NCBI GenBank assembly: GCA_001792895.1
Contig: MARA01000028.1
Location: 1 to 64,000 of the forward strand
Origin: Lentinus brumalis
Lineage: Eukaryota; Basidiomycota; Agaricomycetes; Polyporales; Polyporaceae
DNA: 64,000 nt
Direction of reading: 5' to 3'
Shown here: positions 22,802 to 56,620 of the stretch, in pieces
Position numbering within the stretch: position 1 is the stretch's first letter
How the letters are laid out: the number at the start of each line of letters is the position of its first letter
Made by a program: the position numbers and the translations under genes
Notes under the pieces: generated by a model
Database searches by the model: none
What the model was told of the DNA's origin: nothing
What the model saw: only the letters and a program-made list of their open reading frames with translations

Positions 22802-23248
22802 CTATACTTCAAGATACATGAAGTCCCCGCCCGTCCCCGCCTCCTCGCGTTGTAGCTTCACCCCGAAGTCCTTGAGAATGCGCACGCGGAGCTGGATGAG
22901 ATCACTGGTCTTGGCCATCTTTCTGACTTCAGCAGTCGACTCGTCTTCGTCAGCGCAGCCATCAAGGAGGTTTTGCACGGGAGCAATTAAGTACATCCCG
23001 TCAAGCCTGCCCCATTGCGCTACTGAAGACGACGCACTGCGCGGATAGCTCATTTTGGCGGGTACTGTACTATTGCCCAACACCTGGTGTGTTGTGTCCT
23101 TGCACTCCCCACTCCTGCCCGCTAATATCAGACTGCTATGCATGCGGCTTCGACGTATGGTCAACTCAAGATTGACCGTCTGATCGTACGTGCTTTGATT
23201 GTGATTATTTTGACAATCTGTTGCTTCTCTGAATGACGCGGACCTCAT
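22802..23248 (-). CDS. possible small unrecognised protein
   Basis: An open minus-strand frame with a normal-looking composition, especially its C-terminal two thirds (AQWGRLDGMYLIAPVQNLLDG; IQLRVRILKDFGVKLQREEA). It has no motif I recognise. It could be the last exon of a gene whose 5' part lies near 23300-23600, or a pseudogene fragment. The rest of 22404-23749 shows nothing I can support. Confidence 0.3.
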   Translation of the reverse strand: MRSASFREATDCQNNHNQSTYDQTVNLELTIRRSRMHSSLILAGRSGECKDTTHQVLGNSTVPAKMSYPRSASSSVAQWGRLDGMYLIAPVQNLLDGCADEDESTAEVRKMAKTSDLIQLRVRILKDFGVKLQREEAGTGGDFMYLEV

Positions 23249-23748
23249 ATACGAGCTGCTCGAGCATCACCTCAGGTTGCAAACCCACCTATCTCGTTCT
23301 AGCCGCTGTGAGTCCAAGTCGGGGACTGGCTGACGGTAATCTGAATGTTTTACGTTGTCAAGGGCACGCGAACTTTGTGACTACCCGTTCAAGGGCAGCG
23401 CTGCTGACAAGTTCGTCGCTTGTTCTAGCAGCACTTCACGGCGTGAGCTGCTGTAGTTACAGACTTGAGCCTCGAGTTCGCAGCGTCGAGATTACTCACG
23501 CCTCGCCTCACGGATCTCTTCCGCTTCATAATCAATGCATAGTACGTCCACCTTCCTTTACATACAAGACCCCAGTCTGAACTACCAAATCACGACAAAG
23601 AAGATACAACGAATGTAACATGCCAAGTATCTCCGAAATGCATCAACTATGATCAACACATTCGCAAAGTGGCGCGCCGAGAACGGGCGACCCCACTGAC
23701 TCGTCGGAATACCAGGGACTCAAAGGCACTGCGCGACGACATTGTCGC

Positions 23749-23929
23749 TCTGTCAACCGTCGGTGAGATGCCGCCGTGTACATTGTTTCGAATAAGCTTA
23801 CCAGGCGATAACACATTGGGAACCAGTCTGATTGCCATTTCCCCCCTGCTCGCTGTCAACGAAGACGCCTTCGGTCGTTTCAACGGGGGCCTCGACAGGG
23901 ACGGCAGGTGCGATAGTGAACGTGTCCAT
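23749..23929 (-). CDS. putative lipopeptide mating-pheromone precursor (CaaX box CVIA)
   Basis: Basidiomycete mating pheromones are made as short precursors (about 35-80 aa) that begin like MDxF. They end in a CaaX box and are trimmed and farnesylated. Here the ATG at 23929 opens MDTFTIAPAV, continues acidic (VETTEGVFVDSEQ), then Gly/Asn-rich (GGNGNQTGS), and reaches Cys-Val-Ile-Ala. Unspliced, the frame adds a Trp before TAA, which would block prenylation. But GTAAGC at the Trp codon is a good donor. A 52-nt intron (23750-23801) with a CTCAC branch-like site and TTGACAG acceptor rejoins TG with A, creating TGA right after Ala. The spliced product is 42 aa, ending CVIA. A TATAAA lies about 120 bp upstream. 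No STE3-type receptor gene is visible in the window. Confidence 0.65.
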
Positions 23930-24048
23930 GGTGGTAGACGGTGAGTGCGTGATAGTGCGTATGCGAGTGATAGCTGAGAGAGAGCTGGTGATAGACAGGT
24001 TCACCGACGAATGTGTGTCTGGTCATGTCTCTTCTGGAGAGAGCTGTC

Positions 24049-24054
24049 TTTATA
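24049..24054 (-). promoter_or_regulatory. TATA box of the pheromone-like gene
   Basis: TATAAA on the minus strand, about 120 bp upstream of the ATG at 23929. A pyrimidine-rich leader (CTCTCTCTCAGC, CTCACCGTCTACCACC) runs up to the ATG, as in strongly transcribed fungal genes. The retrotransposon LTR begins 143 bp further upstream. Confidence 0.55.
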
Positions 24055-24191
24055 CCATCCGTCTGAGTCCCTGGTGACTCGGACGTCAAACAGTCCCTCT
24101 GCCCCTCCATGCATCCACCGCCCCGACGGACAATACGAACGCCACCATCTGTGTCGGAACGAGTGATATTTGGGGAACTTCGGCGAGCTAT

Positions 24192-24196
24192 GTATC
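24192..24196. repeat. target-site duplication, left copy (GTATC)
   Basis: GTATC directly before the 5' LTR; the same five bases follow the 3' LTR at 30668-30672. This is the expected Ty3/gypsy target duplication length. Confidence 0.95.
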
Positions 24197-24441
24197 TGTA
24201 ACGGACGTACATCGGTCGGAGCGCCCGCGATTAGATAGACGCTGGATCCCTGCATAATCATGATCTACTACTGTACGATAAGATAGTGGCTGCATCTACT
24301 GTACAGTTCCTCTTGTATATCCTGCTCGAGGCGCGGTGAGAAGGGCATCTTCTCACCGCCCTATCGCTAGTATACGTTCACCTAATCTATAGGTCTTGGA
24401 CGAGTCTAGCCCTGGGTGTGAGACGACCACTGTGCTTTACA
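24197..24441 (+). repeat. 5' LTR (245 bp)
   Basis: Starts TGTAACGGACGTACATCGG and ends ACCACTGTGCTTTACA. It contains a TATA-like TGTATATCC and an internal hairpin (GGTGAGAAGGGCATCTTCTCACC). It reads identically to 30423-30667. Confidence 0.95.
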
Positions 24442-24483
24442 TCTTTTTTGACTCGCCTCGCCAACATAGACTAGGCGACATCA

Positions 24484-26408
24484 TGTCTCATCTAGGCAAC
24501 AACACCAACTCAATCACCGCGAGAAGCCCCGGTCCCGAGGCTTCTTCGTGGGAGAATATCACCGACGCTCAAAACTACGCGACCGCCCCGGTCGATCTGC
24601 CCGCCCCGGCATCAGGACTACCGACGCGACGCAGCCCAATTGGAACCGGTCGCCAAACGATTACCCCCCATCGCCGTCCCCAAACCGGGGACAGGACGTT
24701 GGTATCATCGGTGAGCTGCCTCTACTACAACCCCACCCTTCGCGAATCGGATCTAGACCGCGGATCACGGAAGAAGGCCCGCCGCCGCATGCGACGGCGA
24801 CCTCGCTGTCCGCCCCCCGCTAGGCACTACGCGTAGATCAGGACCGGATAACGGCCCCGACCTAACGGGGGCCTTGACGCAAAGCCAACTGGCGCTACGT
24901 GAACAGGTCCGGCTCCGTACCCAGCAACTCGAGGAGCATGCGGATGACCTCAAGTTGCTGCGTGAGCGGTCCATGGGTGTTCTGCGGGAATATGGAGACG
25001 AGATGAACGCAGCGATGGCGCGCACCAACCGCGCCCTCGACGACAACAAGCGTACTCTCGAGGACATGGAGAGAACAATGACGATGACCCGGCGTGCACT
25101 GGGACTCCCTCCGTTAACGGCGGAAGTCCCGGGCCGCGAACCTCATGGAATGAACGTTAGAGTCGAGGCGGCCTCCCAGCCGACTAGCGCACCGTCTCGA
25201 CAGCATTATGCCGAGACGGTGTCTGACCATACTCAGTCGTCGCTGCCTAGGCAGGACGGCGAGTCCCTGGCGGCTATGATAGACGGGTAGATATGGAGGT
25301 CCGAAGGCAAGGACGCATAGTACAGGCTGTACAACCTACTGTAGAACATGTACTTCGCAATACAGCCCCTAGCGATCGCCCGCGCGCAACGCGGACGATC
25401 CCAATGGACCATCAACATGCCCAGACGGACGGTGATTATCGCGGGCGCAGTGAGGCGCTCCGCGACGCACCCCCACACGAGTCTGTGGCCGATCGGTATG
25501 CCGACTACCGCGATACCTACACGAACATACTGGATGCTCAACATGAGCGTGCCAGGAGACAGACCACCGAGGTACCCTTTACCTCGGCGTACCGTACGTT
25601 TCCTGGACTCAGCCCACCTCCCGCGGATCGAGTTGGTAACTCGATCACGGCCGCACTACGCCCGGGCGGAGTTCGCTACGGCAATACCGTAGTGTACAAC
25701 GCGGGCCAACCTGTAAGCGTACTTCAGTCGATGGCGAACACACACGACTCGAGACCAGAGCAGGCGCGTCCGAGGACGCACTTGGACGCCCTGCTCGGCC
25801 AGATAGTACAGAACATCAGACATAAGGTAGGGGAGCGAATCCCTATCCCCGAGGGGATGAAGCATCCAAAAATTGAAGTACCGGCCAAGTACGGCGGTGC
25901 AAACAACCACCAATTGTTCTACACGTGGTTGGACGGTGTGCTGGACTGGATGCGGGCCTACAACATATGTGGACCCGATGCAGACAGGCATCGATTAATA
26001 TACCTGCGCCAGCATCTCAAAGGGGATGCTGACGACTGGTATGCTCAGGAAATAGACCACCCCGACAATCTGGAGACCCCATCGTTCGAGGCGGCCGTCT
26101 GCAAGTTGCACGACAGGTTCGTGCACTCGAGCACGGCCGCCAAGGCAACCGAAGAATTTGCGAAGTGCCACTACCAGGCGCAGAACGGCGTCGAGCGATT
26201 CGCCGCTGACCTGCGCCGCAAGGCAAAGGAAATGATTGAACACCCGGGAGCTACGAGATGCGCCTCCGGTTGTTTAATGGACTCCCAGAAAACATACGAC
26301 GGAATCTGCGAGTCAATCGCGGCATCACCCCAGAGTACAACACCTGGGATGATATACTCGATCATGCCCGGCAGTTGGAAGAAGCCTACTCCAACATGGA
26401 CAGTATAG
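24484..26408 (+). pseudogene. gag N-terminal and capsid region, frame-broken
   Basis: Gag-like coding potential begins at an ATG near 24484 (MSHLGNN) but shifts frame several times. One open piece covers 24874-25290, with a coiled-coil-like stretch REQVRLRTQQLEEHADDLKL. The next covers 25293-26408, with the capsid-like block HPKIEVPAKYGGANNHQLFY, WLDGVLDWMRAYNI, LKGDADDWYAQEI, and FVHSSTAAKATEEFA. Homology leaves this frame near 26240 and continues one base over in the following frame at YEMRLRLFNGLPENIRRNLR. A frameshift inside the capsid is not a place where programmed shifts are normally found, so I treat it as damage or a sequence error. Confidence 0.7.
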
Positions 26409-27628
26409 CAAGCCGCAAGTCGACGTACAACTCGAGCCCCCACTCGAGTCGTGCAGACGACCGTGGAGACAGGCACCAAAATAAACCGAGCAGAGACCGT
26501 TCACGGTCGCGATCGCGCGATACTCGCCATCCTCGCGGTCGTGAGCCGGCGAGCGCGTCTCGGGCGATACCAGGAGCGGGACTCACCAAGTTCCCGCCCC
26601 GACCTGCTACGCCCATGACTCGATCAAAGGATGATACATGCTTTGCCTGCGGCCAACCAGGTCACTATAGAGGTGACCCGGTATGTCCGAAAAGCAGAGA
26701 TGCGAAACCAAAAGCCCGATTCCATAGCCAGCGGATAACGACCGGGTCCGACGATGAGTCGGACAACGGTGATGACCGCTGGGGAGGATCTCAATACACA
26801 TCCTCACCCGAAGATCCGGGGCACGGATCTGAGGGGGAGGGTAAGACGACAAAGTCGGACGATGACGCCGCTTCCGAAGTCATGAGAGCACACGCGATGC
26901 GCATAGTCAGTTGTGATACAGACTCGGAGGATGACTCACCTACAGCCCGAGTTCATGCCATGCGCGTGGTCACCGCACACGACGATGATGACGACATGGA
27001 TAGCGAATTAGGCTACCACGTCGACGACGAAAGGAGCGAGACGGGATCGGAGAATGAGACCGCCTCGCCCATCCAAGTACGATTGTGTGCTATGGAACGA
27101 GTAAGTGTACCTCGAGAGCATTCAGCGAATGTGCGCCGTAAATCTACGACGCCCATCACGGTGCAACCCTTCAGGGATCCTCAGCTACACTCGACGCTCT
27201 GTGCGTTGATCAACATTAATGGGACGGACGCGTACACCCTGTTTGATACAGGGAGTACCACCGACTCCATCACCCCCGAGTTCGCCCACATATCCCGGGC
27301 ACCCAAGATTGTGCTGGAGGAACAAGTAGTCCTCCAGCTCGGGTGCTCGGGAAGCCGGTCAAAGATTAACTACGGTACGAGAGTTCCAGTCAAGGTTGGG
27401 CCGATATCGGAGCAAGTATACTTCGATATAGTCAACCTTGACCGGTACGACTGCGTCATAGGAACTCCATTTATGACGCAGTATGGCGTAGTCTTGGACA
27501 TGCATAATAGACACATCATAGTGAAGGGTACCGTCATCCCGGCATTCACCATCGAGGAAGACAAGGCCGTTCGTAAGGACCGGAAGACCGATAATCGGTC
27601 TCTCGGGCCATTCAAGGCATCCCAATGA
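26258..27628 (+). CDS. gag C-terminus with zinc knuckle, and aspartic protease
   Basis: A 456-codon open frame. It begins inside the capsid C-terminal part (LFNGLPENIRRNLRVNRGIT), then an Arg/Ser-rich linker (RSRSRSRD), then a zinc knuckle CFACGQPGHYRGDPVC (about 26638-26685) whose last spacing is His-x6-Cys instead of the usual x4. Next is a long acidic linker, then a retropepsin-like domain with catalytic DTGS in LFDTGSTTDSITPEF (about 27240-27284) and the flap/C-terminal VIGTPFM near 27450. The frame ends at 27628. Pol follows in another frame after 42 bp, so pol expression would need a frameshift or reinitiation. Confidence 0.85.
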   Translation: MRLRLFNGLPENIRRNLRVNRGITPEYNTWDDILDHARQLEEAYSNMDSIASRKSTYNSSPHSSRADDRGDRHQNKPSRDRSRSRSRDTRHPRGREPASASRAIPGAGLTKFPPRPATPMTRSKDDTCFACGQPGHYRGDPVCPKSRDAKPKARFHSQRITTGSDDESDNGDDRWGGSQYTSSPEDPGHGSEGEGKTTKSDDDAASEVMRAHAMRIVSCDTDSEDDSPTARVHAMRVVTAHDDDDDMDSELGYHVDDERSETGSENETASPIQVRLCAMERVSVPREHSANVRRKSTTPITVQPFRDPQLHSTLCALININGTDAYTLFDTGSTTDSITPEFAHISRAPKIVLEEQVVLQLGCSGSRSKINYGTRVPVKVGPISEQVYFDIVNLDRYDCVIGTPFMTQYGVVLDMHNRHIIVKGTVIPAFTIEEDKAVRKDRKTDNRSLGPFKASQ

Positions 27629-27670
27629 CTCGACGCCCCTCGCCGCGGCCGACCTAGAAAGCAGGCCGCG

Positions 27671-30349
27671 GTGGAGGAGGTCGAGGACATGGATGTACGG
27701 GCCATGAGAGAGAAACCTTCCCTCGCCCCAGGCTACCCCGCACTACTGGAGTTGGCCTCACAAGTCAACTCCCGTAATAAGGGTAACGCCAACAGAAAAA
27801 CCCATAAAAAGAGAGAGGTAGTAGTGGAAGAGGTCGAAGATGAAGACGTCAAGGCAGCAAGGATGAGGTCCTCGCTGCCAGACGACCACCCGTCGCTAAT
27901 GGTACCCTCGGACGAGGACGATGACTCCCCACCCGATGAGCACCCTACGCGACCCAAACAGCGACGACACCGCGACGAGAGAGCAACGCATACCACGGCG
28001 GACCAGGTACCTGACCCGCCGCTGGCTATCAGAGCCGCTCGCCTCAACTACTCCGACAGGGAGTACCCCGCCTACTCAAGGATCGACAAGGTCAAAAGGA
28101 AGAACACGTCTAGGAACCCGATGCCGAACATCGCGTTCCAGGACAACGTTACACCGCACTCGTCGAAGGGTGTCCGCCGCGACCGATTTGGCCGTGAGGA
28201 CCCGTTCGGACTCAATGAGGTGTTAGAGGCAGAAGTGGTCAAGCAATTGACCACTCCTGAACCTAATGACTCAGACATACCGAGACTGCGGGAAGAATGG
28301 ATGCGCAAAGTGGAAGACTTAGTGGGTGACATCCCACTGGTCCTTCCGCCAATGCGTGAAGTCAATCATCGTATTCCGCTGATTGACGAGTCCAAACGTT
28401 ATCAATATCATCATCCCCGGTGCGCTGACGCATTGCGTCCTGCGCTCCGCGAGAAGATGGACAGGTACCTCAAGGCGGGATGGTGGGAGATGAGACCAGC
28501 GACGCAAGCCGTGCCGCTGCTCTGCATCCCCAAGAAGAATGGGAAACTTCGTACCGTCATCGACGCGAGGCAGAGGAACGAGAATACGCTCAAGGACGTC
28601 ACACCGTTCCCGGACCAGGATAATATCCGGAACGATGTGGCTCGAGCTAAGTACCGTACCAAGATCGATATGTCGGACGCGTACGAACAGATTCGTATAG
28701 AGGTAGATGACATATGGAAGACGGCTTTCTCTACCATCTATGGAACAGCCGTGTCTCACGTCATGCAACAAGGAGACTGCAATGCTCCCAGTACATTCCA
28801 GCGTCTGATGACGTGGGTGTTCCGGGAGTATATCGGACTCTTTGTTCATGTCTACCTCGATGATATTTTCGTGTACTCAGACACCGTGGCCGAACACGAG
28901 GAGCACCTCACCCTCGTGTTCGCTAGGCTCCGAGAACAGCGACTGTACCTCAGTAAGAGCAAGCTCGACCTGTACTCTGAATCGATGGACTGCCTTGGTC
29001 ACCTTATTGATGACAAGGGACTCCATGCGGACTCGGACAAACTGGCTCGAATTCGAGACTGGAGGCCTATGCGATCGCTGAACGAGGTCCAGCGATTTCT
29101 CGGCCTCGTTCAGTATCTCGCTCACTTCCTGCCGGATGTTTCCGCCTTCACTTCGCCGCTCGAATCGATATGTAAGAACGGACAACCGTTCCACTGGCGA
29201 CCCCTACACCAAGCGTGCCTTGACAGGATCAAGGCCCTGGCTTGTAAGGTTCCGATTCTGAAACCCATAGACCCCAAGTCTGACGAGCCTATATGGGTCA
29301 TCACCGACGCATCGGTCTATGGTGTGGGAGCCGTGTATGGACAAGGGCCCGACTGGCGTACCTGCCGACCAGCCGGGTTCATGTCCAAGAAGTTTTCGTC
29401 CGCACAGCGCTCGTATCACACCTACGAGCATGAGGCCCTAGGTGTGATCGAGGCGCTGATGAAATGGGAAGATAGGTTGATGGGACGGAAGTTCTACATC
29501 GCTACGGATCACGAGGCCCTCACCACCATGAGGACCGCAATCCGTGAGACGAAGAACAGCCGGCTAATACGGTGGGCGGAGTACATCGATAGGTTCGACG
29601 CCTCGATCGTGCACGTCGACGGAGAGGAGAACAAAGTTGCGGATTGTTTATCCCGCTACTTTGAAAATGACGGCGCAGATGAGGTGCACCCGGTGCACGA
29701 ATATGTCAATGCGGACGTCCGCCTAAACCCTGAACTGGACGAGCTCCCTGAAGCTCGACAGTCAGAGGTCGCACGAACCGTGACGATGCACGCAATGGAT
29801 CTTCGCGTGCGCAGGCCGAGGAAGGTTGACCCGAATAATGTGGCCGATTGGCCCATTAAACGGAAGCGAACCCCGAAAGACAAGCCCGAGGCGCGACGGG
29901 ACGAAGCGCAAGAGCTCCACGCTGCGGTGGAAGCCGCCGCGGCGAGACAGCAGCCTACGCCTCGTCGCGCTGTAGAAGAAGAAGAAGTCACGCTACGAGA
30001 CGCATTACAATCCGGGCCTCCTCTGGATGACACCATCCAGTCGGACCCCGGATTATGGAAGGCAATACGCGAGGGCTACAACGACGACCCTCTGTATCAG
30101 AAGGTCGTCGCCAACCCGCCCGCGTATCCCAACTTCCAGATTCGAGACGGAATACTATACGTCCGAACCCGCCTGGGGTTCGAATGTGTATGCATTCCCC
30201 GATCACAGTACAAAGGAAAGAGACGACTCACCGACATCGTGCTCGACATCCCCGTGAAGGACTACGCCGCCGTTCACGACGTGGAGATGGACGAGGCTCA
30301 GGTAGCTGGAGGGGCGGCTGGCCCATCGACGACTTCTCCCGACGCTTAG
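27671..30349 (+). CDS. truncated pol: reverse transcriptase and RNase H
   Basis: An 892-aa frame. Residues about 1-220 are a charged linker. The reverse transcriptase shows PLLCIPKKNGKLRTVIDARQ, KIDMSDAYEQIRI and YLDD at 28853-28864 (about residue 395), then the connection FLGLVQYLAHFLPDVS. RNase H shows WVITDASVYGVGA, the YHTYEHEALGVIEAL Glu, IATDHEAL and ENKVADCLSRY. After RNase H the protein reaches IRDGILYVRTRLGFECVCIP, the lead-in to the integrase zinc domain. It then ends in an Ala/Gly-rich tail (VAGGAAGPSTTSPDA). No HHCC and no DDE integrase motif is present. RT and RNase H catalytic residues look intact. Confidence 0.95.
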   Translation: MEEVEDMDVRAMREKPSLAPGYPALLELASQVNSRNKGNANRKTHKKREVVVEEVEDEDVKAARMRSSLPDDHPSLMVPSDEDDDSPPDEHPTRPKQRRHRDERATHTTADQVPDPPLAIRAARLNYSDREYPAYSRIDKVKRKNTSRNPMPNIAFQDNVTPHSSKGVRRDRFGREDPFGLNEVLEAEVVKQLTTPEPNDSDIPRLREEWMRKVEDLVGDIPLVLPPMREVNHRIPLIDESKRYQYHHPRCADALRPALREKMDRYLKAGWWEMRPATQAVPLLCIPKKNGKLRTVIDARQRNENTLKDVTPFPDQDNIRNDVARAKYRTKIDMSDAYEQIRIEVDDIWKTAFSTIYGTAVSHVMQQGDCNAPSTFQRLMTWVFREYIGLFVHVYLDDIFVYSDTVAEHEEHLTLVFARLREQRLYLSKSKLDLYSESMDCLGHLIDDKGLHADSDKLARIRDWRPMRSLNEVQRFLGLVQYLAHFLPDVSAFTSPLESICKNGQPFHWRPLHQACLDRIKALACKVPILKPIDPKSDEPIWVITDASVYGVGAVYGQGPDWRTCRPAGFMSKKFSSAQRSYHTYEHEALGVIEALMKWEDRLMGRKFYIATDHEALTTMRTAIRETKNSRLIRWAEYIDRFDASIVHVDGEENKVADCLSRYFENDGADEVHPVHEYVNADVRLNPELDELPEARQSEVARTVTMHAMDLRVRRPRKVDPNNVADWPIKRKRTPKDKPEARRDEAQELHAAVEAAAARQQPTPRRAVEEEEVTLRDALQSGPPLDDTIQSDPGLWKAIREGYNDDPLYQKVVANPPAYPNFQIRDGILYVRTRLGFECVCIPRSQYKGKRRLTDIVLDIPVKDYAAVHDVEMDEAQVAGGAAGPSTTSPDA

Positions 30350-30410
30350 TCCCTCAACGCGTCGATGTCCTCGACGCGTTGGAGCTCTGCATACGGCCGG
30401 GGTTCGGCCT

Positions 30411-30422
30411 AGAGGGGGAGGA
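30411..30422 (+). other. polypurine tract
   Basis: AGAGGGGGAGGA lies immediately before the 3' LTR, the expected primer for plus-strand DNA synthesis. Confidence 0.85.
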
Positions 30423-30667
30423 TGTAACGGACGTACATCGGTCGGAGCGCCCGCGATTAGATAGACGCTGGATCCCTGCATAATCATGATCTACTACTGT
30501 ACGATAAGATAGTGGCTGCATCTACTGTACAGTTCCTCTTGTATATCCTGCTCGAGGCGCGGTGAGAAGGGCATCTTCTCACCGCCCTATCGCTAGTATA
30601 CGTTCACCTAATCTATAGGTCTTGGACGAGTCTAGCCCTGGGTGTGAGACGACCACTGTGCTTTACA
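30423..30667 (+). repeat. 3' LTR (245 bp)
   Basis: Same sequence as 24197-24441, followed by the right copy of the GTATC target duplication at 30668-30672. Confidence 0.95.
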
Positions 30668-33242
30668 GTATCCGTCCTACACCGTGCAGGTACAAGTCGA
30701 TAGCTAATTTGACAGTGTGGACAGTAGTGTGGCTACTGAACTTCCCTCGATACCCTCCATACTCCGGCACTAGGGAGGTGGCTGAAACTTCATCGTGCCC
30801 GTACCTAACGTACTGTCGCTTTATTTCGTCCCAGTTGCAAGCTCCTCCGAGTCTAAATTTGCGTGCGCCGTGCGCACGGGGAGGACTGTGGTAGGACATT
30901 GGAGCGACTCTGCGATTAGCTCGAGTCCTCGACCATGTACTATAACCCCACCCCAGGCAGGGGATCGGACCACCTCTCAGGTGGATTCCTTGTACATGGG
31001 AAATCCTCCTGAGAGGACCCGTCCCCGCACAGACTTCCCGCACCAAACGCCAAATACGGTGTGGGCGCTATCGCCTCTTTTGGCCTCTCCGCCGCTGCCT
31101 TCGGGATGGGCGCCATCGTCGCATGCAGCTGCGCGCTGGCGGCTGCCGTCCCACTGTCCACGCCTGCTTCCTCCCCGCCCTTCCATGGTGCCGCCGCGTC
31201 GTCCGGCATAGATAGCACGCTCTGTAGGCCAGTAGTATACCATAAAAGCAATGCCAATAGCTGCTGTACTTCACCTGGTGTCTGATAGCGTGAAGTTGCT
31301 GCCAAAAAGGAGCTGGTGGTCGCTTGAGTAATTTGGGCACTGCATGAGGTCCGTGCGGACCTCTGTACGGACGTCCGCACGCACGTCGGATGCAGACGTC
31401 TGGCCTGACGTCCGCTTGTCTGTGCCTGAACGTGACAGGTCGGGGAAGCATGTCCCAATTCGGATGCTTATCGGCCTTCGAGCCGCCTCGTCCGGGTGCG
31501 GAGCATCTACTGTCAGCAGCCAATCAGAGCTCGAATATCGATCCCACTGAATGTTTTGAATCTCTGACATACCCTTCGTACCCTCGGAAGCTGTAGCTGT
31601 GTGCCCTAAAATTTCCCGGCAGGGCTATGGAAAGCTGTTGTAGAGGTACAGGTTGTTTTTGGTGATCTTCCCTAAGGTCTTTTGACATTGTGTATCTGTT
31701 CTGCCAGGGATGCATTAGTAGTTCATATAGTGCAGCATAATGAAGTGCATACTCAGCCCATACCTTGTATATGTGCACCTTCATTGTCCTCCTGCATTCA
31801 GAAACCAAGCCAGCATGAGACCTAGACTGCTTGGGACTTCACTGAAGCAACAATAGAGGTCATACCAATGAGAACAAGGTAGATATATGTTCTGGCCTTT
31901 CAGTAGAGCGCTTGGGCTGAGTATAGGTGGTTCTCATTCCTACTTTCTGGTGTGTAGTACGCCACCCTTTGTTGCTAGTATCATCCTGGCATTTCTATGA
32001 TCTCATGGTCAAAATTATAGGTCATTCAGACCAGAACATAGCCCAAAAAATATACCAGTGTACAGGCGAATTTGAGCGTCAAAGCAAGAGGGTCCAGACG
32101 GATTTGGATGCCCGAGGTCCCTCCGGAGGTCGGGTCTGATGTCCCTACAGTCGTCCGGAGGTATGGTCAGTATGGACGTCCGTGCAGACATTCCTGCACA
32201 CGTACGAGCGTAGCCAAAAGCATTAAAAGTAAGTTGTAATTGACGGAACGACTTCAATACGAGCTACAGAGTGTAAAATACAAGTGGAGCAAAGGACACG
32301 GCTTCAGACGCCTGCGCCATCGTAGGATGAGTGGTCTAAAAAGGCAAGCCACGAGGCTTCGGCACCCGGAGCCGAAGAATCTATTCTTAGACACAAGCAG
32401 ACGTCCGCGGAGGAGGGGTCCTCTCAGACCTATTTCCCATGTACAAAGTATCGACCTGAGAGGCCCAGTCCTCCCCTGCCCTAGGTGTATAACCCTGTGG
32501 CACGCCATGCACTGCGTGTTGATGAGATCCTCGTCGTTGTCGTGAAAAGTTCGCGGTCGTTCCGTATTGTCGTGCATGCGGTGGCAAGTTTCGTGAAATT
32601 TCTATATTTCCTGCTCACATCGCCCACGCCGGCACCTTCGCATCGGTAGACAATCTGAGCATGGTGCGGCCTACCTCCTTCCGTGTATTCTGAGCACCTC
32701 CCCAGGTGCTGCGGAGCCGAAGTGTTTTGATCAATGCTCTCCTTCTCGAGCCGACGCGCCACTCGGCGACTGGGCGCGGTGACCGTGGCATCCCCGGCCC
32801 CCGAGTTCCAAGTCTATATCTTTTCAGGACAAGTATCTCTCGCCTCCTGCTGTCTCCATTGCAGCCGGACTCACTGATGCACTCTGAAGGCCTGAGAACA
32901 CGTTATCCGCGATCGCCGCTGCTCTCGCAGCGATCTCTCAAGGCTCCGAGCTAAGTGCGGCCGTATGACGGATGGGCTCTTGTCGTGAGTGTCGACTTCC
33001 TGCCCAAAGGCGGGCACATGGTGACATACGTATCTGACCGAACTATTCACAGGTATCGAATATTGTGAGGACGTCCGCTGCTCCATCAAGCTTCATTTCT
33101 CACATTGACAAGCCGGGCCGTTGATGTGGACGCTTCATACTGTACAGGCAAGATATTGCGTTCGAGTGTCAGCGATCTGGTATATCGTCAGAGCTTGTTA
33201 AGTATGCGCAAAAAGAGCAGGCCCGGGTTGAGCCGGCGCCCT
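30668..33242. other. non-coding stretch right of the retrotransposon
   Basis: No gene I can support. It includes the foldback structure at 30940-32505. At 32700-33240 a short + strand stretch (YLSPPAVSIAAGLTDAL; TLSAIAAALAAISQG) looks like remnants of helical protein-coding sequence but has stops and no recognisable family. Confidence 0.5.
30940..32505. repeat. nested inverted repeats, candidate non-autonomous foldback element
   Basis: A roughly 80-bp block at about 30950-31035 (CAGGGG ... CCTCTCAGG ... TTGTACATGGGAAAT ... CTGAGAGGACCC) recurs in reverse complement at about 32405-32485. Each copy is itself a hairpin with CCTCTCAG and CTGAGAGG arms around TGTACATGG. Inside them, a GACGTCCG-rich block at about 31345-31430 is matched by a reverse-oriented block at about 32090-32205. 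The order outer-inner-inner-outer resembles terminal and subterminal repeats of a DNA transposon of about 1.5 kb. The interior has no transposase. I did not find a clear target duplication. Confidence 0.55.
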
Positions 33243-34930
33243 TCAGAGCTCCAACTCGTCAACCACCGCCACCTCTTCAACGAGCTCCCGCAACCTACGC
33301 ATCCGGTGCGCAGAGAGCGGTTTCTTGTAGCTGCCCGAAAATGCGAGATACGTCAGGCCCAAGCCTTCGCGCGCCCGCTTCTCGATGGCAGAGAGTAGGC
33401 CCTCGTGGACCCCAGACCCGTTGTGACACGATATCGACAGCCTCCGGAGCGCGGGCCAGTGAGAGGGGTGTTTCCGCAGCGCGGTGAGGAGGTGTCGGCA
33501 CGAGTCGATGTGTACGGTCAGGGAGGATAGGGAGCGGAAGGCGTTGAGTATCCTGCACCAGTCGTTCGCCGTCACGGCGATCCCGGAGTCGAGTCGTAGT
33601 CTCAGGCGATCGAGGGAAGGGGAGTTGGAGAACAGCAACGCGAGGTCCGACAAAGCCCGAGAAGGGAGCCCCTCCTCCCCAAAAATCGTATAACACGGGT
33701 CATGGATAGTCATTTCGAGGTGCGGCTTGGGATCGCCGGGCACGAAGCCGCTGGCAAAGAGCGTCCACTTATGGTTGCGATCGTTGCGGTCGTATTGAAA
33801 GTGGATCGTGACAGCGTTGATCGCCTGGAGTACCTCGACACTGGCAGGCGGGGATGAGGGGATCAACTCTTTCAGCGCAGCGGTGGACCCGGCGAACCAG
33901 TTGATAACCTTCAGCTGTGCTGTCGCCGGAACGTGTACCCGCTCCAGGAAATCATACGCCCATGAGCCCGAAGGGTCATGGATGCGAAGGGAGCAGATCT
34001 GTAAATGAGGGAGGGGGACAGGATCATGATCCAGGTCAGCCTCCCAATCGGGTGCTCGTATGTTCATGTCCAGCATCCGCAGCTGCGGACAGTTCTCCAG
34101 GAAGACCAAGAGGGGCAAGAGAGAATCGGAATATGTTCCATCGTCAAACGTGAGCTCCTCCAAATACGGAAACGCCAACGCTCGACTGGGCAAGTCCGCG
34201 CCGTGTAAAGCAAGTTTGCGGAGACGGGGGAAGTTCTGGCCGCGAGGGGAGGAAGCTGTGTCCTGTCGACGAGCCAGGATCGATTCTCACCGTAGGCCCG
34301 GCACCGCATCGTCTCTAACAGAGGCATGTGCAGACGGAGGAGTTGTGCCAGGTGATATATACTGTTGATTGTTCGTGGAACGAGCACGGACAGAGAGGAC
34401 ATGCGCGAGGCGAGGGAGGGCATATCCAAGAGGAAGTCATATTCGCCAGTGATGGTGAGTTTGTAAGGCAGCGGCGAGGAACGTAGGATGTAGGATGGGA
34501 CGGTGTTGTGGTCGATCGGACGCGAAGTCACTGCGCAGACAGCCAGCATGTCCACCCAGAACTCTGGCGTCCGGTAGATGAGGTCGCGCCATAGCTTGCA
34601 GACGTGAGTTAGTCGGAGGTCCGAGCGGCAAGTGGGGAGTATATGACGGAAGACGTTCATCAGGACTTCGGGCGGGAGGGTGGCATGGAGTGGAACCGTT
34701 GTGTTCTGGATAGTGCTGAGCTGCACAATGTATTCATTGATGTTCTCAATCATCGCGCGATAGGCTTGTATCTTCGACTCTGCTACTGCTCGGATTTCAT
34801 GAGGCTGCAGTCCGGAGAGGAGAGCGAGGTCATCTGGTGGTAATGGCGGCAGACCACGACTGGGGTACGCCATGTCCAATTCGTCCGGTACTGCCTGTGA
34901 AATATCATCGATTCGCCGATGCGTCTGCAA
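33243..34930 (-). CDS. F-box protein with leucine-rich C-terminal region (one frame break)
   Basis: The N-terminal part starts at about 34930. It contains a coiled segment and an F-box (LPPEVLMNVFRHILPTCRSD ... HVCKLWRDLIYRTPEFW, about residues 62-108), the module that binds Skp1 in SCF ubiquitin ligases. The C-terminal part is leucine-rich-repeat-like (FPRLRKLALHGADLPSRALA; FPYLEELTFDDGTYSDSLLP; LRLRLDSGIAV; LSSLTVHIDSC), as in agaricomycete F-box proteins. The two parts are in different frames; the break lies in a C-rich run near 34245 (CTTCCTCCCCTCGC). A single extra or missing C would fix it, so a sequencing error is as likely as a mutation. An upstream first exon cannot be excluded. The substrate is unknown. 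Confidence 0.8.
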
Positions 34931-35546
34931 TGAGCATGAACCATACGCACCATACGCACTCGACGCTCGTAGACTGAGACTCTTGTCCGACGTTGGATCT
35001 GAGTGGTTCAGGCCTGTTCAGGCGAGCGGCGATGAGATGACTGCCGCCCGACGGAGGCTCTCAGATCCTCTCAGATCCTCGCCCGATGCGCCCAATCGAG
35101 ATAAGTAGCATGCAGACTGAGCGTGTACATGGTACGGTTGCTGGAATTTGCGAGAAGGTCCTCGGACTTGAAGCTCAACTCAGGGTCATCCAGGTGAAGA
35201 TAAACATTATAGCGTTGACACAGTGCGGATTGGAGAGCGATGGCAGAGCCAGTCATCAGCCAAAGGGTGGTTGATGGAAGCTCGATGTGAAGCAGCAGCA
35301 GTAGCACCAGCGCGAGTAGGTAGGTTGAATGAGCTCGGCGAAGGGGCGCGACTGCATCCGCGACGGCAAACTTCAAGTTCGCGTACGTCACGCGGTTCCG
35401 TATCGTTCGCGTTGGCGCCCATTTCGCGTTCGCGAGCAGACGCCACCAAGAGTTGTTGACGCAGATGGAGATAAACCAACTATTGCAGTACTCTACAACA
35501 CGTCCGTGTGTTGAGAGCTGCAGCTGGATGACATTGTCAATTATGA
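34931..35546. other. intergenic, no gene seen
   Basis: About 615 bases between the F-box gene and the 3' end of the MTG2-like gene. A minus-strand open frame at 35071-35391 with a hydrophobic stretch (YLLALVLLLLLHIEL) is not supported by anything else. Confidence 0.4.
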
Positions 35547-37464
35547 CTATGTAGATATCGTATGGACGCGCAGAACATCACTACTCTCCTGCGCCTCCTG
35601 GTCGGCCTTGGCCTTGGCCTCCCTCGCCTCCTCCACATATCGCCGCATCAGCCCAACAACCTTCTTCAAGTTCAGGCTGAACTTCGCCGACACGGGCACC
35701 ACGTCCAGCGCACGCTGTCCGTCTCCTTCTCCCATGCGCATCTCCTCCGCAACGAACGCCTCCAACCGACGCAGTTTTGCCCTCGCCTCTGCGACCTCCT
35801 CTTCCGACGCGCCGGTCCCTCCCAGGAGGTCCGCCTTGTTCGCGACGACGAGGCGCGCCTGCGCGCTCAGGCCGGGCTTGTACTTCTCGAGCTCTTCCCG
35901 GAGCACGCGCAGCTCATCCCATGGGGCAGGGGCAGAGAGGTCGACCACGTACGCCAGTGCGAGCGAACGCTCCATCGAACGCAAGAACGAGTGGCCCAGG
36001 CCGACGTTGGCCGACGCCTCCTCGATGAGCCCCGGGTTATCTGCGACGGTGAACCGGAACGCCTCCATCGTGTCGTAGGGATCCACCACCGCCTTCTCCT
36101 CGAGCGCCCTCCGCTGGTTCCGCGTAAGTGCATCTGCGAGCTCCCCGCGCTCCATGAGTCCACGCTCGCGCTCCTCCTCCGCCCGCGTCTCGTCGTGGAC
36201 CGCGCCTTCTGCGAAGCCGTCGAAATTTCCGTCGTCGGACACGCGCACGACGCCGACGACGGGATTGAGCGTGGTGAAGGCGTACCCAGCAACTTCTGTG
36301 CGCGCACGTCCGCCCGTGAGGGCGCGCAGAAGCGTGCTTTTTCCAGCGTTGGGCATGCCGACGAGCCCGATATCTGCGAGAAGCTTGAGCTCGAGAGAGA
36401 GCGACACCCGCTCCCCGGGGTAGCCGCGTGTCGCCCACTTCGGTGACCGCTGCGTGGAGGAGAGGAACGCGGGGTTGCCCACACCGCCCATGCCGCCTTG
36501 TGCAACGAGGTGGCCCATGAAATCCACGCGGGGCTGTCCGAGCGGCGCGTTCGGGTCGGCAGCTTCTGCAGCCTCTTCGGGCTTGTCGAGGTCGAGGAAG
36601 ATGGGGTTCTCCGAGCGCATCCTCCGAGCGCGTCGTCGCTCGCGTTCTTGCGCGAAAAGCACCTTTTCGGCATGCTTAAAGTCCTCACGCTGCGCGTTGT
36701 CGTCCGCGTACTCCGGGTAGTGGACCCACCGCTTCGCGCGCATCCTATCCCGCTTCTCCTGCGGACTGAGGCCCTGCAGGTCCTCCGCTTCCGCCTCGTA
36801 CTCGTCCTTCTGGCGTCGGGGGTCGTCTCGCGGCAGCTCGCGTACGATGGTGCCGAGCGGGACCCTGATGACGAGTGGGGGAGCGTTCTTGCCGTTCTGC
36901 CACGTCCCTCCGCCAGATCCGCCGTGTTGTGCGCGTAGGCGAGTCGAGACGGAGGAGAGACTCGTCAGATGGGGAGTGGGTAGGATGTAGACATCGCCGC
37001 CGCGCCCGCCATTCCCTCCCGAGGGCGGTCCATAGGGCTTGAAGAGCTCGCGATGGAAAGCGACGCATCCGTCGCCGCCGGTACCGGCACGGACATGGAC
37101 TATGGTGTGGTCCAAAAAACTTTGTCCCTGCGGAAGCGAGTTGCTAGGTGAGTACGTCGTGGTTCACGGTACCAGGGGTTTGACTACATGCAACCAGCTG
37201 TTACATTGAGTCAACATCTCTGTCCTCTCGATGTAGCAGCGTGTCCCATGTCGGAATAAATAACACAGAACTCACATTTTGTCGACGCTTCCAGTCTGTT
37301 CTTCTCTTGCGCCTCAGCTCGTCTTCTGATAGTGTGCTTGCATCTGCACCCTCAGGAAGTCTCGAAGGCCCAGCTGGCGGAATAGATGTAGTCGTGTAAT
37401 GCCTGCCAGCGAACGTGGTAACGCTCTGCGCTCTCAGCGGCTTGCAATGTAGAACGTAGCGCAT
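35547..37464 (-). CDS. MTG2: mitochondrial Obg-family GTPase (MTG2-like)
   Basis: Obg/MTG2 GTPases act in mitochondrial large ribosomal subunit assembly. Exon 1 (37276-37464) encodes a basic, Ser/Thr-rich leader (MRYVLHCKPLRAQSV) typical of a mitochondrial presequence. Exon 2 (35547-37127) joins in phase across a 148-nt intron as RRQN|GQSFLDHTIVHVRAG. The total is 589 aa. The Obg fold shows its Gly-rich repeats (GTGGDGC, GGNGGRGGDV, GGSGGG). The G domain has G1 GMPNAGKST (about residue 320), G2-like TTLNPVVG, G3 DNPGLIEEA, G4 NKADLL and G5-like VSAKF. Two charged insertions, one inside the Obg domain and one between G2 and G3, make it longer than bacterial Obg, as in fungi. The long antisense open frames over this GC-rich gene are shadows. 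Confidence 0.93.
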
Positions 37465-44984: not shown

Positions 44985-47724
44985 TCATGCAAAGGCAGCC
45001 TCAGAAGCGTCTGACAGGTCCGAGAATCCGTAGTCCTCGCCCTTGACGAACGCACGAGTACATTGGGCCATCGTCACAGACCTGCGTGTTCATGAACATG
45101 GTTAGCAACGTTCATCGACACACATTTGATTGCCACTCACGCTCGCGAGATGGGGTCGGTCTGGTAGAAGTTCTCGATGGGCTTCTTGAACGGCTCGCCG
45201 GTCACCTTAGCTTTGGCGGTACCAGCAGCAAGGGCCTTCAGGCCAGCAAGGGCGACGTCCACGGATGTCGGCTCCGTGGTATCGTAGCGGAGGAGCGTCG
45301 GTGAGATCTCCCACATGCGGTCACGCAGGCTAAGGACATCGTCGTAGGGGAGGGGTGAGTCCAAAACCTCAGAGAGCGCACTGCGAACGACGATGAGACC
45401 GCGCAGTGGACAAGCGAATGGGGAGTAGACTCACCGGATGATCTTCCAGTCCTCGCGGGAAGCACCGGGGGAGGGACGGCAGCACGGCCGAGCTGTGAGC
45501 GACCCTCGGTGTTCACCCATGTCGTGCTCTTCTCCGTGTATGCAGAGCCAGGGAGGACGACGTCAGCGAGCTGAGCACCGAGGTCACCGTGGTGTCCCTG
45601 ATAGACGACGAAGGCATCCTGGGGGATGTCCTTGGGGTCGACCTCGTCGGCGTTCAAAAGGTAGATGAACTTCGCCTTGGTCGAAGACGCCTTCTTCGAC
45701 GGTACGAAGCCGATATCGTACGCAGCCGGACGGGACGCGGCCTGTCCAGTCCACGTCTGATTAGTACTTGATGTGCTTACATGTAAGCAGTAGCGACTTA
45801 CACGCTGCAGGACGCTGAAACCGTTCCACTCAGGAGTAACGAGCTTCTCCTTGTTCGCCTCGACGAACTTCGCGAGCGCGTTGTAGACAGCAGCACCATC
45901 GGCGTGCTCAGCGAGAGCACTACCGACGATGATCAAGGGCCGCTTCGCCGCCTTGAACTTCTTGGCAAAGTCGCTCTTGCCCGCGACGAAGTCCGCAACA
46001 GTCTTCGCGTCGTTGCCGAGGTGCTCGTATCCGTACGTCGTGTCCACCCGCTCGCCGATCAGGCCAACCTCGAGCGTGGTGTGCAGCCAGCTCTTCCGAA
46101 TACGCGAGTTGAGGACCGCCGCCTCGTGCCGTGGGTTAGTGCCAACGAGGAGGATCACATCCGCTTGCTCTACGCCAGGAATAGTCGAGTTGAACAGGTA
46201 GTTTGATCGCACGTCGACGGCGTGAACGGGTGCGGCGTGGCCGGCGACGCTGTCGACAGTGGTGTTATCCGAGCCTAGACGGTTGACGAGGTCCTTGAGG
46301 GCAACCAGGGACTCCGTATCCGCGAGGTGGCCAGCAATGGCCTTGATTTCGTCACCCTTAGCGCCGGACTTCTGGAGACCCTCGGCGATAGTTGCGAGAG
46401 CATCCTCCCAGGACGCCGTCACGAACCTGTCGCCCTGCTTGACCAGAGGGACCGTCAAACGCTGGAATCGGAGGCCGTCATAAGCATACCGCGTCTTGTC
46501 GCTGATCCACTCCTCGTTGACGTCGTCATTGGGCTTCGGCTGCACCCGCATGACGACAACACCACGGGAGTCGACACGGATATTTGAGCCAACAGCATCG
46601 AAAACGTCAATAGAGTCGGTGTGCTTGAGCTCCCATGGACGAGCGTGGAACGCGTACGGCTTGCTCGTGAGCGCGCCGACAGGGCAGAGGTCGACGACGT
46701 TCCCAGATAGCTCCGAGTTCATCGTCTTCGCGACGTACGTGCCGATCTGCATGTCGTTGCCGCGGCCAGTCGTACCGAGCTCCTCGACTCCGGCGACTTC
46801 GTTGGCGAATCGTACGCACCGTGTGCATTGGATGCAACGGTTCATGGAGGTCTTGACGAGCGGCCCGAGATCCTTGTCCTCAACAGCACGCTTGCCAGCA
46901 ATCTCGTGGAATCGTGTCCTGTCCGCACCGTATCGCATCGACTGGTCTTGCAGGTCGCACTCACCACCCTGGTCACAGATAGGGCAGTCTAAAGGATGGT
47001 TGGAGAGGAGGAACTCCATGACGCCCTCACTGCTCATCCGTTAAGACTGCAGACTTTGATGACATGAGGGAGTAACTCACCGAGCTTCATGGACGAGTGG
47101 TGTGTTCGTGAAGACCTTCGCACCAGGCATAGCAGGCATGGCGCTGCCAGAGTGTCAGAATCTGAGGGCGAGTGGGGGCGAGAGCAACTCACCAAGAGGC
47201 CACGGGTTTTGGTGAGCGCTCTACCTCGACCAAGCACATACTGAAACACCGTCAATTGCTATCCAGACCATCCACGAGTTCTGCCAGACGCACCGGCAGT
47301 TGCCCGCTATCGCGAGCCGGTCATGGTAGCAAAATCTGAGCAGGCGTCAGCTGATAAAGTTACAGCGAAGACAAGCAGATACTGACCTTGGTATTGTAGC
47401 TCCTGCAGCCTCGCAAGCCTGAATCAACGCCGAACCTGCGTACCGTCTCTCAACACCTCATTCGGAAACCCGAGGACGCCCATACAAGTACGCACCCTGA
47501 GGCACAGTAACTTCCTTCCCGTCAACGGTGAGAGTGATGTCCGCCTGCCGTGGTGATGAGGTGGCAAATGTCCGGCGACCTAGAAAACCGTGCGGTCGCT
47601 GCTTAACGAGAGGGTCATGTTGGAGAGGAGAGAGCGCACTTGAACGTGTCGACGGGGCAGCAACGACCTTGGCGAGCACGCCCGCCGACGAAGGCTTGGA
47701 GGCCGACGAGACGAGCCGCAGCAT
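44985..47724 (-). CDS. NADH:ubiquinone oxidoreductase 75-78 kDa subunit (complex I)
   Basis: The peripheral-arm subunit carrying three Fe-S clusters, in the mitochondrial matrix. The start at 47724 (MLRLVSSASKP) gives a presequence ending near RRTFATSSPRQ, followed by the ferredoxin-like ITLTVDGKEVTVPQG. After introns come the cluster ligands: the first two Cys groups (47090-47460), HPLDCPICDQGGECDLQDQS (with His) and RCIQCTRCVRFANEVAG, then the molybdopterin-oxidoreductase-like half. That half includes VVDLCPVGALTSKPYAF, WISDKTRYAYDGLR and VGTNPRHEAAVLNSRIR, and is large and intact. The C-terminal exons read ALSEVLDSPLPYDDV, PFKKPIENFYQTDPISRA, and a last exon SVTMAQCTRAFVKGEDYGFS with stop at 44985-44987. 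All major motifs are intact. Confidence 0.93.
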
Positions 47725-53837: not shown

Positions 53838-56620
53838 ATGAGCTCTCCCATATACCCTTCCCACTCCGGCGCGGGACCAAGCTCCTCACGGTCGCACTAC
53901 TATCGTCCCGCCACCATCGCCGAACTAGCAGCTCAGGCGCAGGAGAACCTCTGGGATCCAAGCAAGGGCCTCAAGCACTGGCTGCGCACTGCCGAGAAGG
54001 CCAGACGAAATGCTGAAGCACTCGTGGCCAACAGCGACTTTGAAGGCGCGTTCGTAGAGTATGCCAAGGCTGCCACGATCGTCCTGGAGAAGCTCCCAAC
54101 ACACCGAGAGTACCAGACACTTTTGAACGCCGATCAGAGACATAACTTGGGCATGGTGAGTCGTTGTCTTATGCGATGCTGTAGCTTGTTGGTTATACTG
54201 TTGTGTGTATGCTTGCCCTTTCCTTTTGCTGGATGGTCGCGGCTTGAGGTCTTAGCCCATTTTGGCAATGAGACCGCTCTCGTGAGTTTTAGAGTGCGAG
54301 CTCTTACATGGCGCGTGAGTGGCCGCGTCATGCTCATACTCATCTAACCTGCAGTCATGAGCTTCGCTTGTGCTCGTTTCCTTCGACACCTGAAGTGCTG
54401 CCTGGCACAGACTTAGTGCAGTCAATCCGATTGGAGCGGTGGTTCATTGTGCAACCTAAGAGCTATGGCAATGGACATAGCCCTCCGGATGCATAGATAG
54501 TCGGATACGGGTAGACCAGCGAGGTTGTCGGGGCAATTGGTCCGTGGTCCATCCAGATGCATCGTCCGCTCGACTTCCCATACACCTCTTTGATCTGTAC
54601 TAACCTTGCGCGGACAGAACGGTCAAGACATCCTTGACAGCCTCAGCCAGCTTAAGCCTATCATCGTCGAGCGATATGAGTCGTGGCAGTCAAATCAGCG
54701 ATCGAGCCCAGGATCCAGTCGAACACCTTCCGCAGAGCCACCTCTCAGTCGTGAGGAAGAACGAGCACGTGAGGCTAGAGAAGCAGCTCGTAGGGAGGAA
54801 GCATGGAAGCAGGAGGATTACGTCCGTCGTCAGGCAGAAGAAAGAGAACGGCAGGCGCGCGAAGACGCAGCGTGGCGTCAGGCACAAGACGCGCGCAGGA
54901 GAGAGGACGGGGTCAGGGATTCGTTGACAGAGAGGCAGAGACGGGACGATGACAACAGACGGTATGCGACAGAAGAGGCGCAGAGGGAAGACGAGCGCGC
55001 CAAGCGCAGGGTAGCTGAGGATCGCAGACGACAGGAACAGGATGGTATCATGAAGAGGCAGCAGGAGGCCGACGCGGCGGCACGCGCAGCGCGAAGAGAC
55101 ATTGCAAGATTGACTCCGTCGCCGGTGCCGCCAACAAGTGCGACCAGCTCGTCGGTTCGAATGCCGGATCCAGAACCTCACACGCGGTATGGAGGGCGAT
55201 CCGTCCATGCGCCTCAGCCGTCTCGCCCGCAGGATTCATATGGTAGCAGTGGTCTCATGCCGCTTGAGAGCCCGACGAAGTACGAGGACGACTCGTCTAC
55301 TGATGTCGAGGGTCCGAAGATACCCTGGAATCGCCGTCCTGCAGATCAAACTCCGAAAAGCAAGCAGACACCTGGGTATGTCCACTCGGCGCGTGTTCAC
55401 CTACAACTCGATTCTAACCGCAGTCACAGTATCTCTTATCCCACGCCGGTTACCACGACATCTCCACCGCCGCCAGAGTTGGGCAGTGTCAAGTACCCAT
55501 CCCTGATGTCGCAACACCAGCTCAAGCAGGGCTACGTGCCCTCCCTCCAATCTATGTTCGCACCTACTTCTCTCTCTCAAGCGCCTGACTCATCTCTCCT
55601 CTTCGAACCCAAACCGCGTTCCGGCAACCTGTACAGCAACATTCTTCCATCGCAGTCCACGCCTATTGCTCCCGTCATTCCCCCATACCCAACGCACATG
55701 CCGGTTCCAGAGTCGCACCAACCGCCGGCGACATATACATACTCCCATACCCAATCCTACTCCCAGAAGGGACCTTCTCCGCGACCTCCACCGCCGCCAC
55801 AACACCGTCCGTCTGGTTCCACCTCGAGCTCACGCATCGTCCCCGGGAGTTCGAAGGACGTGCAGCTCCTCGACCTGCGCACGGTCAAGCTCCCGCGCGA
55901 TTGCCTGCCCAAATTCCTCTCGATCGCGCGAGTCAACACGTTGCAGAACCGCGAGACATGCGGCCTGCTCCTGGGCAAGGACAAGGGCACCAAGTATGTG
56001 GTGACGACGCTCCTGATCCCAAAGCAGCACTCGACGAGCGACACATGTATGATGGACGAAGAAGAGCTTGTCCTACAGTTCACGGAGGAACGTCATCTGA
56101 TAACCCTCGGTTGGGTGAGTCGCACTTTCTCAATAGGAACCTTTGAACGGGCCCTGACGACGCCGGTTAGATACATACCCATCCTACGCAATCATGTGAG
56201 TCTTATCTTGCGCGCAATGTGAGCGGACTCTGACGCCCGCGAAGGTTTCATGTCTTCGGTGGATCTGCACACCCATTCTGGCTTCCAGCGCATGCTGCCC
56301 GAGTCCTTCGCAGTCGTCTGCGCACCGTCTTCTACGCCTCAGTGAGTCCTCTCTGATGCACTCTGGTACTATATACGTGTGCTGACGGCTGCCTCAGGTT
56401 CGGTATCTTCCGCCTCACTGATCCGGGAGGACTGCAAACCATCCTAGAATGTAGCGCCAAAGAGGCGTTCCACCCGCATCCCGATGTACCCATATACACC
56501 GTTCGTCCCTCTCGTCCTGCCTGTCTGGGTGCTCGCTCATAGCTTCTTCTGCAGGACTGTGACAACAGTCATGTACAAATGAAAGACCTCCCGCTCGAGA
56601 TCGTCGATCTGCGCGGCTGA
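53838..56620 (+). CDS. AMSH-type JAMM deubiquitinase (Sst2-like)
   Basis: AMSH enzymes cleave K63-linked ubiquitin chains on endosomes. Exons are 53838-54155, 54618-56114, 56171-56195, 56245-56341, 56398-56500 and 56555-56620. The N-terminal helical USP8-dimerisation/MIT-like part is [20 protein letters not shown] and [21 protein letters not shown] long charged coiled coil follows (about residues 140-280). A Pro/Ser-rich linker comes next, then the JAMM domain. It starts at [20 protein letters not shown] with the catalytic Glu in [10 protein letters not shown]. The zinc motif [16 protein letters not shown] is assembled from three exons by in-phase introns. Then come [18 protein letters not shown] and the C-terminal [12 protein letters not shown]. 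The first intron is unusually long (462 nt). The fifth intron would use GTTCGT, a weak donor. All catalytic residues are present. Confidence 0.9.

Follow-up and report, generated by a model that had tools for sequence, protein, structure and literature searches.

We identified a short gene within the window (positions 1-64,000 of contig C58, 544,832 bases long, in the Lentinus brumalis genome of 53.4 Mb and 136 contigs), which very probably encodes a farnesylated pheromone-type peptide and carries at its 3′-end a predicted intron lying inside the stop codon, the splicing of which would expose the CaaX box. The gene is of a known kind, and its unusual 3′-layout is real and common to its subfamily. 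This supports a model according to which TATA-driven transcription would yield a short pre-mRNA whose 3′-proximal intron is placed just after the stop in the majority of this genome's precursor genes and inside the stop codon in the MDTF-type genes. Splicing would join TG to A and translation would terminate directly after Cys-Val-Ile-Ala, leaving a free CaaX box that could then be farnesylated, trimmed and methylated; the peptide would presumably be matured near a Glu-Gln/His/Arg/Asn site and may act as a signal. As the unspliced message gives CVIAW, which should not be prenylated, splicing would be needed for a working peptide.

Gene structure and the predicted split stop codon

The earlier note on this DNA had described a 42-codon frame starting with MDTF and ending in CVIA, a TATAAA about 120 bp upstream and a 52-nt GT-AG intron joining TG to A to give TGA after Ala, and we find all of these in the sequence (Table 1). 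The frame encodes the precursor MDTFTIAPAVPVEAPVETTEGVFVDSEQGGNGNQTGSQCVIA (42 aa), the TATAAA is located 125 bp upstream of the ATG, and in-silico splicing places TGA immediately 3′ of CVIA; read without splicing, the frame continues with TGG TAA after the CaaX codon, adding one Trp (CVIAW). The intron reads GTAAGC...TTGACAG, with a GTAAGC donor, a CTCAC branch-like motif that deviates from the CTRAY consensus, and a CAG acceptor. The leader, described before as pyrimidine-rich, is mildly so (59.8% over 117 nt), a weak feature because 9.3% of 5000 random stretches of the window reach or pass this value. Of the small ORFs (30-70 aa, n = 1487) in 280 kb of C58 and of contigs C56 and C52, five end in CaaX followed by Trp, and all five are members of the family. 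A chance ORF as the identity of the 42-aa frame is ruled out by the homologues and the selection pattern.

Table 1. Positions of the pheromone-type gene, its parts and related loci (window coordinates unless a contig is named).
Feature	Position	Strand	Basis or remark
Exon 1, 42-codon coding part (MDTF...CVIA)	23929-23804	minus	reading frame and paralogues
TG, first two bases of the split stop codon	23803-23802	minus	in-silico splicing
52-nt GT-AG intron interrupting the stop codon (TG^A)	23801-23750	minus	predicted, sequence only
A, third base of the split stop codon and first base of exon 2 (3′UTR)	23749	minus	
Leader region, kept among paralogues	23930-24048	minus	alignment
TATA box TATAAA, inside the GTATAAAG core common to seven paralogues	24054-24049	minus	
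Gene-bearing block	22814-24199		inverted repeat at C58:87535-88863, 86.7% identical
Longer CaaX precursors (MDQF, MDLF, MDEF starts; 45-66 aa)	C56:48288, 49781, 50593, 71455, 75732		among receptors

Paralogues and their predicted introns

Searching the genome with the 42-aa protein (E ≤ 10) returned nine places, i.e. the gene itself, an inverted copy encoding the identical protein about 64 kb away beyond the window (C58:87805-87930), two places on C52 and five on C56. The MDTF-type subfamily comprises seven genes on these three contigs, one of which starts with MDMF: the two C58 copies and five paralogues on C52 and C56. A regular-expression scan of parts of C58 (110 kb), C56 (150 kb) and C52 (20 kb) gave 20 matches, 17 of which were kept (13 on C56, two on C52, two on C58); those at C58:40445, C58:26624 and C56:81819 were discarded by eye as chance matches unlike the family. 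An additional precursor copy is present at C49:1297804. Each of C52, C56 and C58 has precursors no further than about 32-122 kb from a contig end.

All seven MDTF-type genes have an intron-like structure in the corresponding position, with the donor exactly 2 nt after the CaaX codon, the shared motifs GTANG[CT] (donor) and CTNAC, a CAG acceptor followed by A in 7/7, predicted lengths of 52, 52, 53, 53, 54, 59 and 55 nt and differing interiors. In-silico splicing gives CaaX plus stop in every one of them. In 6/7 the TGA exists only after splicing and the unspliced frame reads on, into Trp and a stop in five genes and into Trp plus 12 residues in C56_90; C56_42 has TAG unspliced and TAA spliced and stops in both forms. 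The unspliced ends differ while the spliced ends agree, a pattern that selection on the spliced form alone would be expected to produce. The earlier proposal that the intron makes the stop is thus supported by its matching position across seven paralogues, as far as sequence can tell.

We had also considered the direct-stop precursors to be free of introns, which was rejected after a scan of their 3′-flanks revealed intron-like structures in nine of the ten scored, with the donor 14-85 nt after the CaaX codon; the detector found none in C56_119, giving 16/17 over all precursors scored. The C49 copy, judged by eye, has a GTGAGT donor at +27, CTGAC and CAG (79 nt). As controls, the detector was positive at 1911/20000 random positions and at 120/1482 small-ORF ends, neither set being purged of family members, and 20 of 330 sites with GTNNGY directly after TG in the contig sequence scanned (family included) have a branch-like motif and YAG followed by A at 45-62 nt. 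We give no p-value because the detector was written after the genes had been seen and the paralogues do not count as independent cases, least of all the C58 pair, which is a recent duplicate. Introns of like size and motifs can be proposed in 4/10 gaps between the exon matches of the STE3 receptor genes.

We favour reading the split stop as a 3′UTR intron that would have moved onto the stop. We infer that a 3′-end intron is the common state, in the precursors of this genome as well as in A. bisporus, for which ESTs reveal a 3′UTR intron in the three precursor genes having expression evidence (PMC8305134). In the MDTF-type genes the stretch from CaaX to donor would have shrunk to two bases, which would make the stop splice-dependent. 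C56_42 resembles an intermediate state or a reversion, and the reverse direction, from split stop to 3′UTR intron, is possible but seems less economical.

A gene that is not spliced at all would truly end in CVIAW and be a CaaX-like precursor that has degenerated or is processed in another way, as proposed for FvPp1 of Flammulina velutipes. The open straight frame agrees with this, as do the accounts of FvPp1: it ends in CAAXW, for which its authors proposed a mutation of the stop to TGG (PMC3140503), and later resequencing agreed; transcriptomic data reportedly back the Trp, and the authors speculated that this pheromone is inactive (PMC5100862). We nevertheless judge it extremely unlikely, as all seven paralogues retain the donor, branch-like and acceptor motifs, an unspliced C56_90 would run 13 residues beyond CaaX and an intron-like structure lies close by in most of the other precursors. 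A regulated switch would be an addition to the split-stop model, in which conditional retention yields the unprenylatable CVIAW and turns the pheromone off post-transcriptionally. The unspliced frame of the window gene stopping one codon later fits such a switch, and so do the transcript data said to carry the Trp and the speculated inactivity of FvPp1; however, the unspliced ends are not conserved, ranging from the extension in C56_90 to the direct stop in C56_42, therefore we see no sign of selection for one specific off form and consider the switch unlikely.

Selection on the precursors

Over the whole coding part, dN/dS is below 1 in all 15 pairs of six MDTF-type genes (0.12-0.65), and the two C58 copies differ by three synonymous and zero nonsynonymous changes. 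Resolved by region for these 15 pairs, pN/pS amounts to 0.23 in the propeptide, 0.30 in the CaaX box and 1.06 in the mature part, the latter value being rough as this part is short and gapped; mean identity among the six genes is 0.80 in the propeptide and 0.25 in the mature part. Propeptide and CaaX box look constrained and the mature peptide does not, a pattern that fits peptides being free to diverge in their signal while the processing parts are held.

These data also bear on the gene being a pseudogene or relic, one of several dispersed pheromone-like copies devoid of function. Its contig having no STE3 matches and its position adjoining a young retrotransposon would suit a relic, but open frames in 7/7 genes, the dN/dS values in 15/15 pairs, the conservation of the CaaX box and the TATA region and the identical protein encoded by the two C58 copies make it very unlikely.

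Genomic surroundings

Both C58 copies are carried by a large inverted duplication with arms about 64 kb apart, in which 22814-24199 and 32502-34962 match C58:88863-87535 and C58:87268-84843 with 85-87% identity, and a related piece is also found near the C52 copies. That the copies are alleles of a single locus, from an assembly containing two haplotypes, was rejected, with RIBIOP_C present at two gene places as in a haploid set, an indication taken from this one family. An LTR retrotransposon (24197-30667), containing reverse transcriptase and RNase H domains and having TG...CA ends with GTATC on either side, begins 143 bp upstream of the TATA box of the pheromone gene; it looks very recent, because its 245-bp LTRs (24197-24441 and 30423-30667) are 100% identical and the inverted copy lacks a corresponding element. 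At the start of the contig is a tandem repeat (1-640) with units of roughly 104-120 bp in self-matches, which is perhaps the cause of the assembly break. Ordinary neighbours encode an Obg-type GTPase (35550-37163), a complex I 75-kDa-like subunit (45241-47040) and a JAB-domain protein (54594-56219).

Homologues

Three profile searches yielded 47 distinct proteins at E ≤ 1, among them proteins named pheromone or pheromone precursor from Trametes, Ganoderma, Gelatoporia and Phlebiopsis species, which make a polypore host probable. Homologues with such names were found with the family profile in Trametes, Ganoderma and Gelatoporia. Cys is located four residues from the end in 45 of the 47 relatives, and CaaX plus Trp ends the two others, P0003 (CVIVW) and P0037. 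With PF08015 (Fungal mating-type pheromone), the window protein scores 16.8 bits, and 14.7 in another search, below the 22-bit gathering cut-off; 8/16 members of set A2 match at E ≤ 10 (best E 0.0018), and one genome match exceeds the cut-off (C56:71461). After in-silico splicing the gene is a short ORF with a C-terminal CaaX (42 aa, CVIA), and where a charged dipeptide processing site would be expected, 10-15 residues before the C-terminus, its sequence has EQ and those of the paralogues ER, EH and EN. The reading as a basidiomycete lipopeptide-pheromone-type precursor, put forward in the earlier note, is strengthened by the named homologues and by paralogues in and around the STE3 cluster. 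No relative was confirmed in the viral contigs and prokaryote genome contigs scanned. Protein P0009 is identical to the C56_121 precursor (C56:121883-121999) and P0001 differs by one residue from the C56_114 precursor (C56:114892-115014), therefore the species or a close relative occurs in public metagenome-type data.

Receptors and the mating-type question

Searching the whole genome for STE3 (PF02076) gave 16 exon matches, all on C56 (23,753-78,145), which we grouped into six receptors, and no match on C58, in agreement with the earlier observation that no STE3 receptor is visible here. The receptor linkage that would mark a B-mating-type-specific pheromone is not seen at the level of the contig, STE3 matches being confined to C56. 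The region C56:1-150000 is a receptor region with six STE3 genes and 13 CaaX precursors; its short MD[TA]F precursors are found once inside the STE3 stretch, at 42.9 kb, and seven times beyond it, at 88-122 kb. A location outside the mating-type locus, as suspected before, thus holds at the level of the contig, whereas close paralogues lie near the C56 receptors. Similarly, the comparison with B-mating-type pheromones is divided: the window protein is closer to the short MD[TA]F precursors than to the longer MDQF/MDLF/MDEF ones, but two Gelatoporia homologues bear the name 'B mating type pheromone precursor'. Best supported is a farnesylated pheromone-type peptide, roughly a dozen residues long with Cys at its end, which would be of the non-mating-type kind as judged by length and resemblance. 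A mating-type role is possible, in view of the mature parts differing between paralogues and the names of the two Gelatoporia homologues. Non-mating-type pheromone-like peptides are not known to have an established role.

Comparison with known systems

Pheromone genes are often sought as small ORFs ending in CaaX, as in several studies (PMC3140503, PMC8686365, PMC10598064, PMC5473757, PMC12387193). Split-stop genes end in CaaX plus Trp or extend further still in the raw frame; scans may therefore overlook them or class them as broken, and they are easily taken to end in a surplus residue that would block the lipid tag. With this layout, splicing could serve as a control point for a lipid-tagged signal; the layout also offers a new angle on the puzzling CAAXW pheromone of Flammulina, the basis of a speculation on loss of self-activation. 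A far-reaching version, in which splicing licenses prenylation in a mushroom pheromone subfamily perhaps including FvPp1, and retention in vivo silences the signal or shifts mating specificity, is rather unlikely. The literature we searched, with most subscription papers outside of it, describes no intron splitting a pheromone stop codon.

The Trametes and other polypore proteins are homologues of the window precursor. The precursors of A. bisporus (PMC8305134) and four of seven of Pycnoporus cinnabarinus (PMC4101180) are alike in being short, starting with MD-x-F, ending in CaaX and occurring in several similar copies, and those of A. bisporus share the 3′-end intron reported from ESTs. In contrast to the A. 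bisporus 3′UTR intron, the one predicted here splits the stop codon, and, as a further difference, the mature part varies strongly between the MDTF-type paralogues. The longer, B-mating-type-like precursors on C56 share the CaaX end and a 3′ intron-like structure (5/5) and differ in length, N-termini, a direct stop codon and their position among the receptors. Precursor models of Grifola frondosa are reported to have two to five exons (PMC10607315), and a Pleurotus MDTF gene is said to be without CaaX (PMC12387193); the latter is another split-stop candidate. FvPp1 has the same order of CaaX box, one Trp and stop, but it is located in the receptor locus and was published as a mutated stop with claimed transcript support, which counts against a split stop there or points to retention. 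Our guess is that FvPp1 could have the same split-stop layout, which would give an identical kind of genomic frame.
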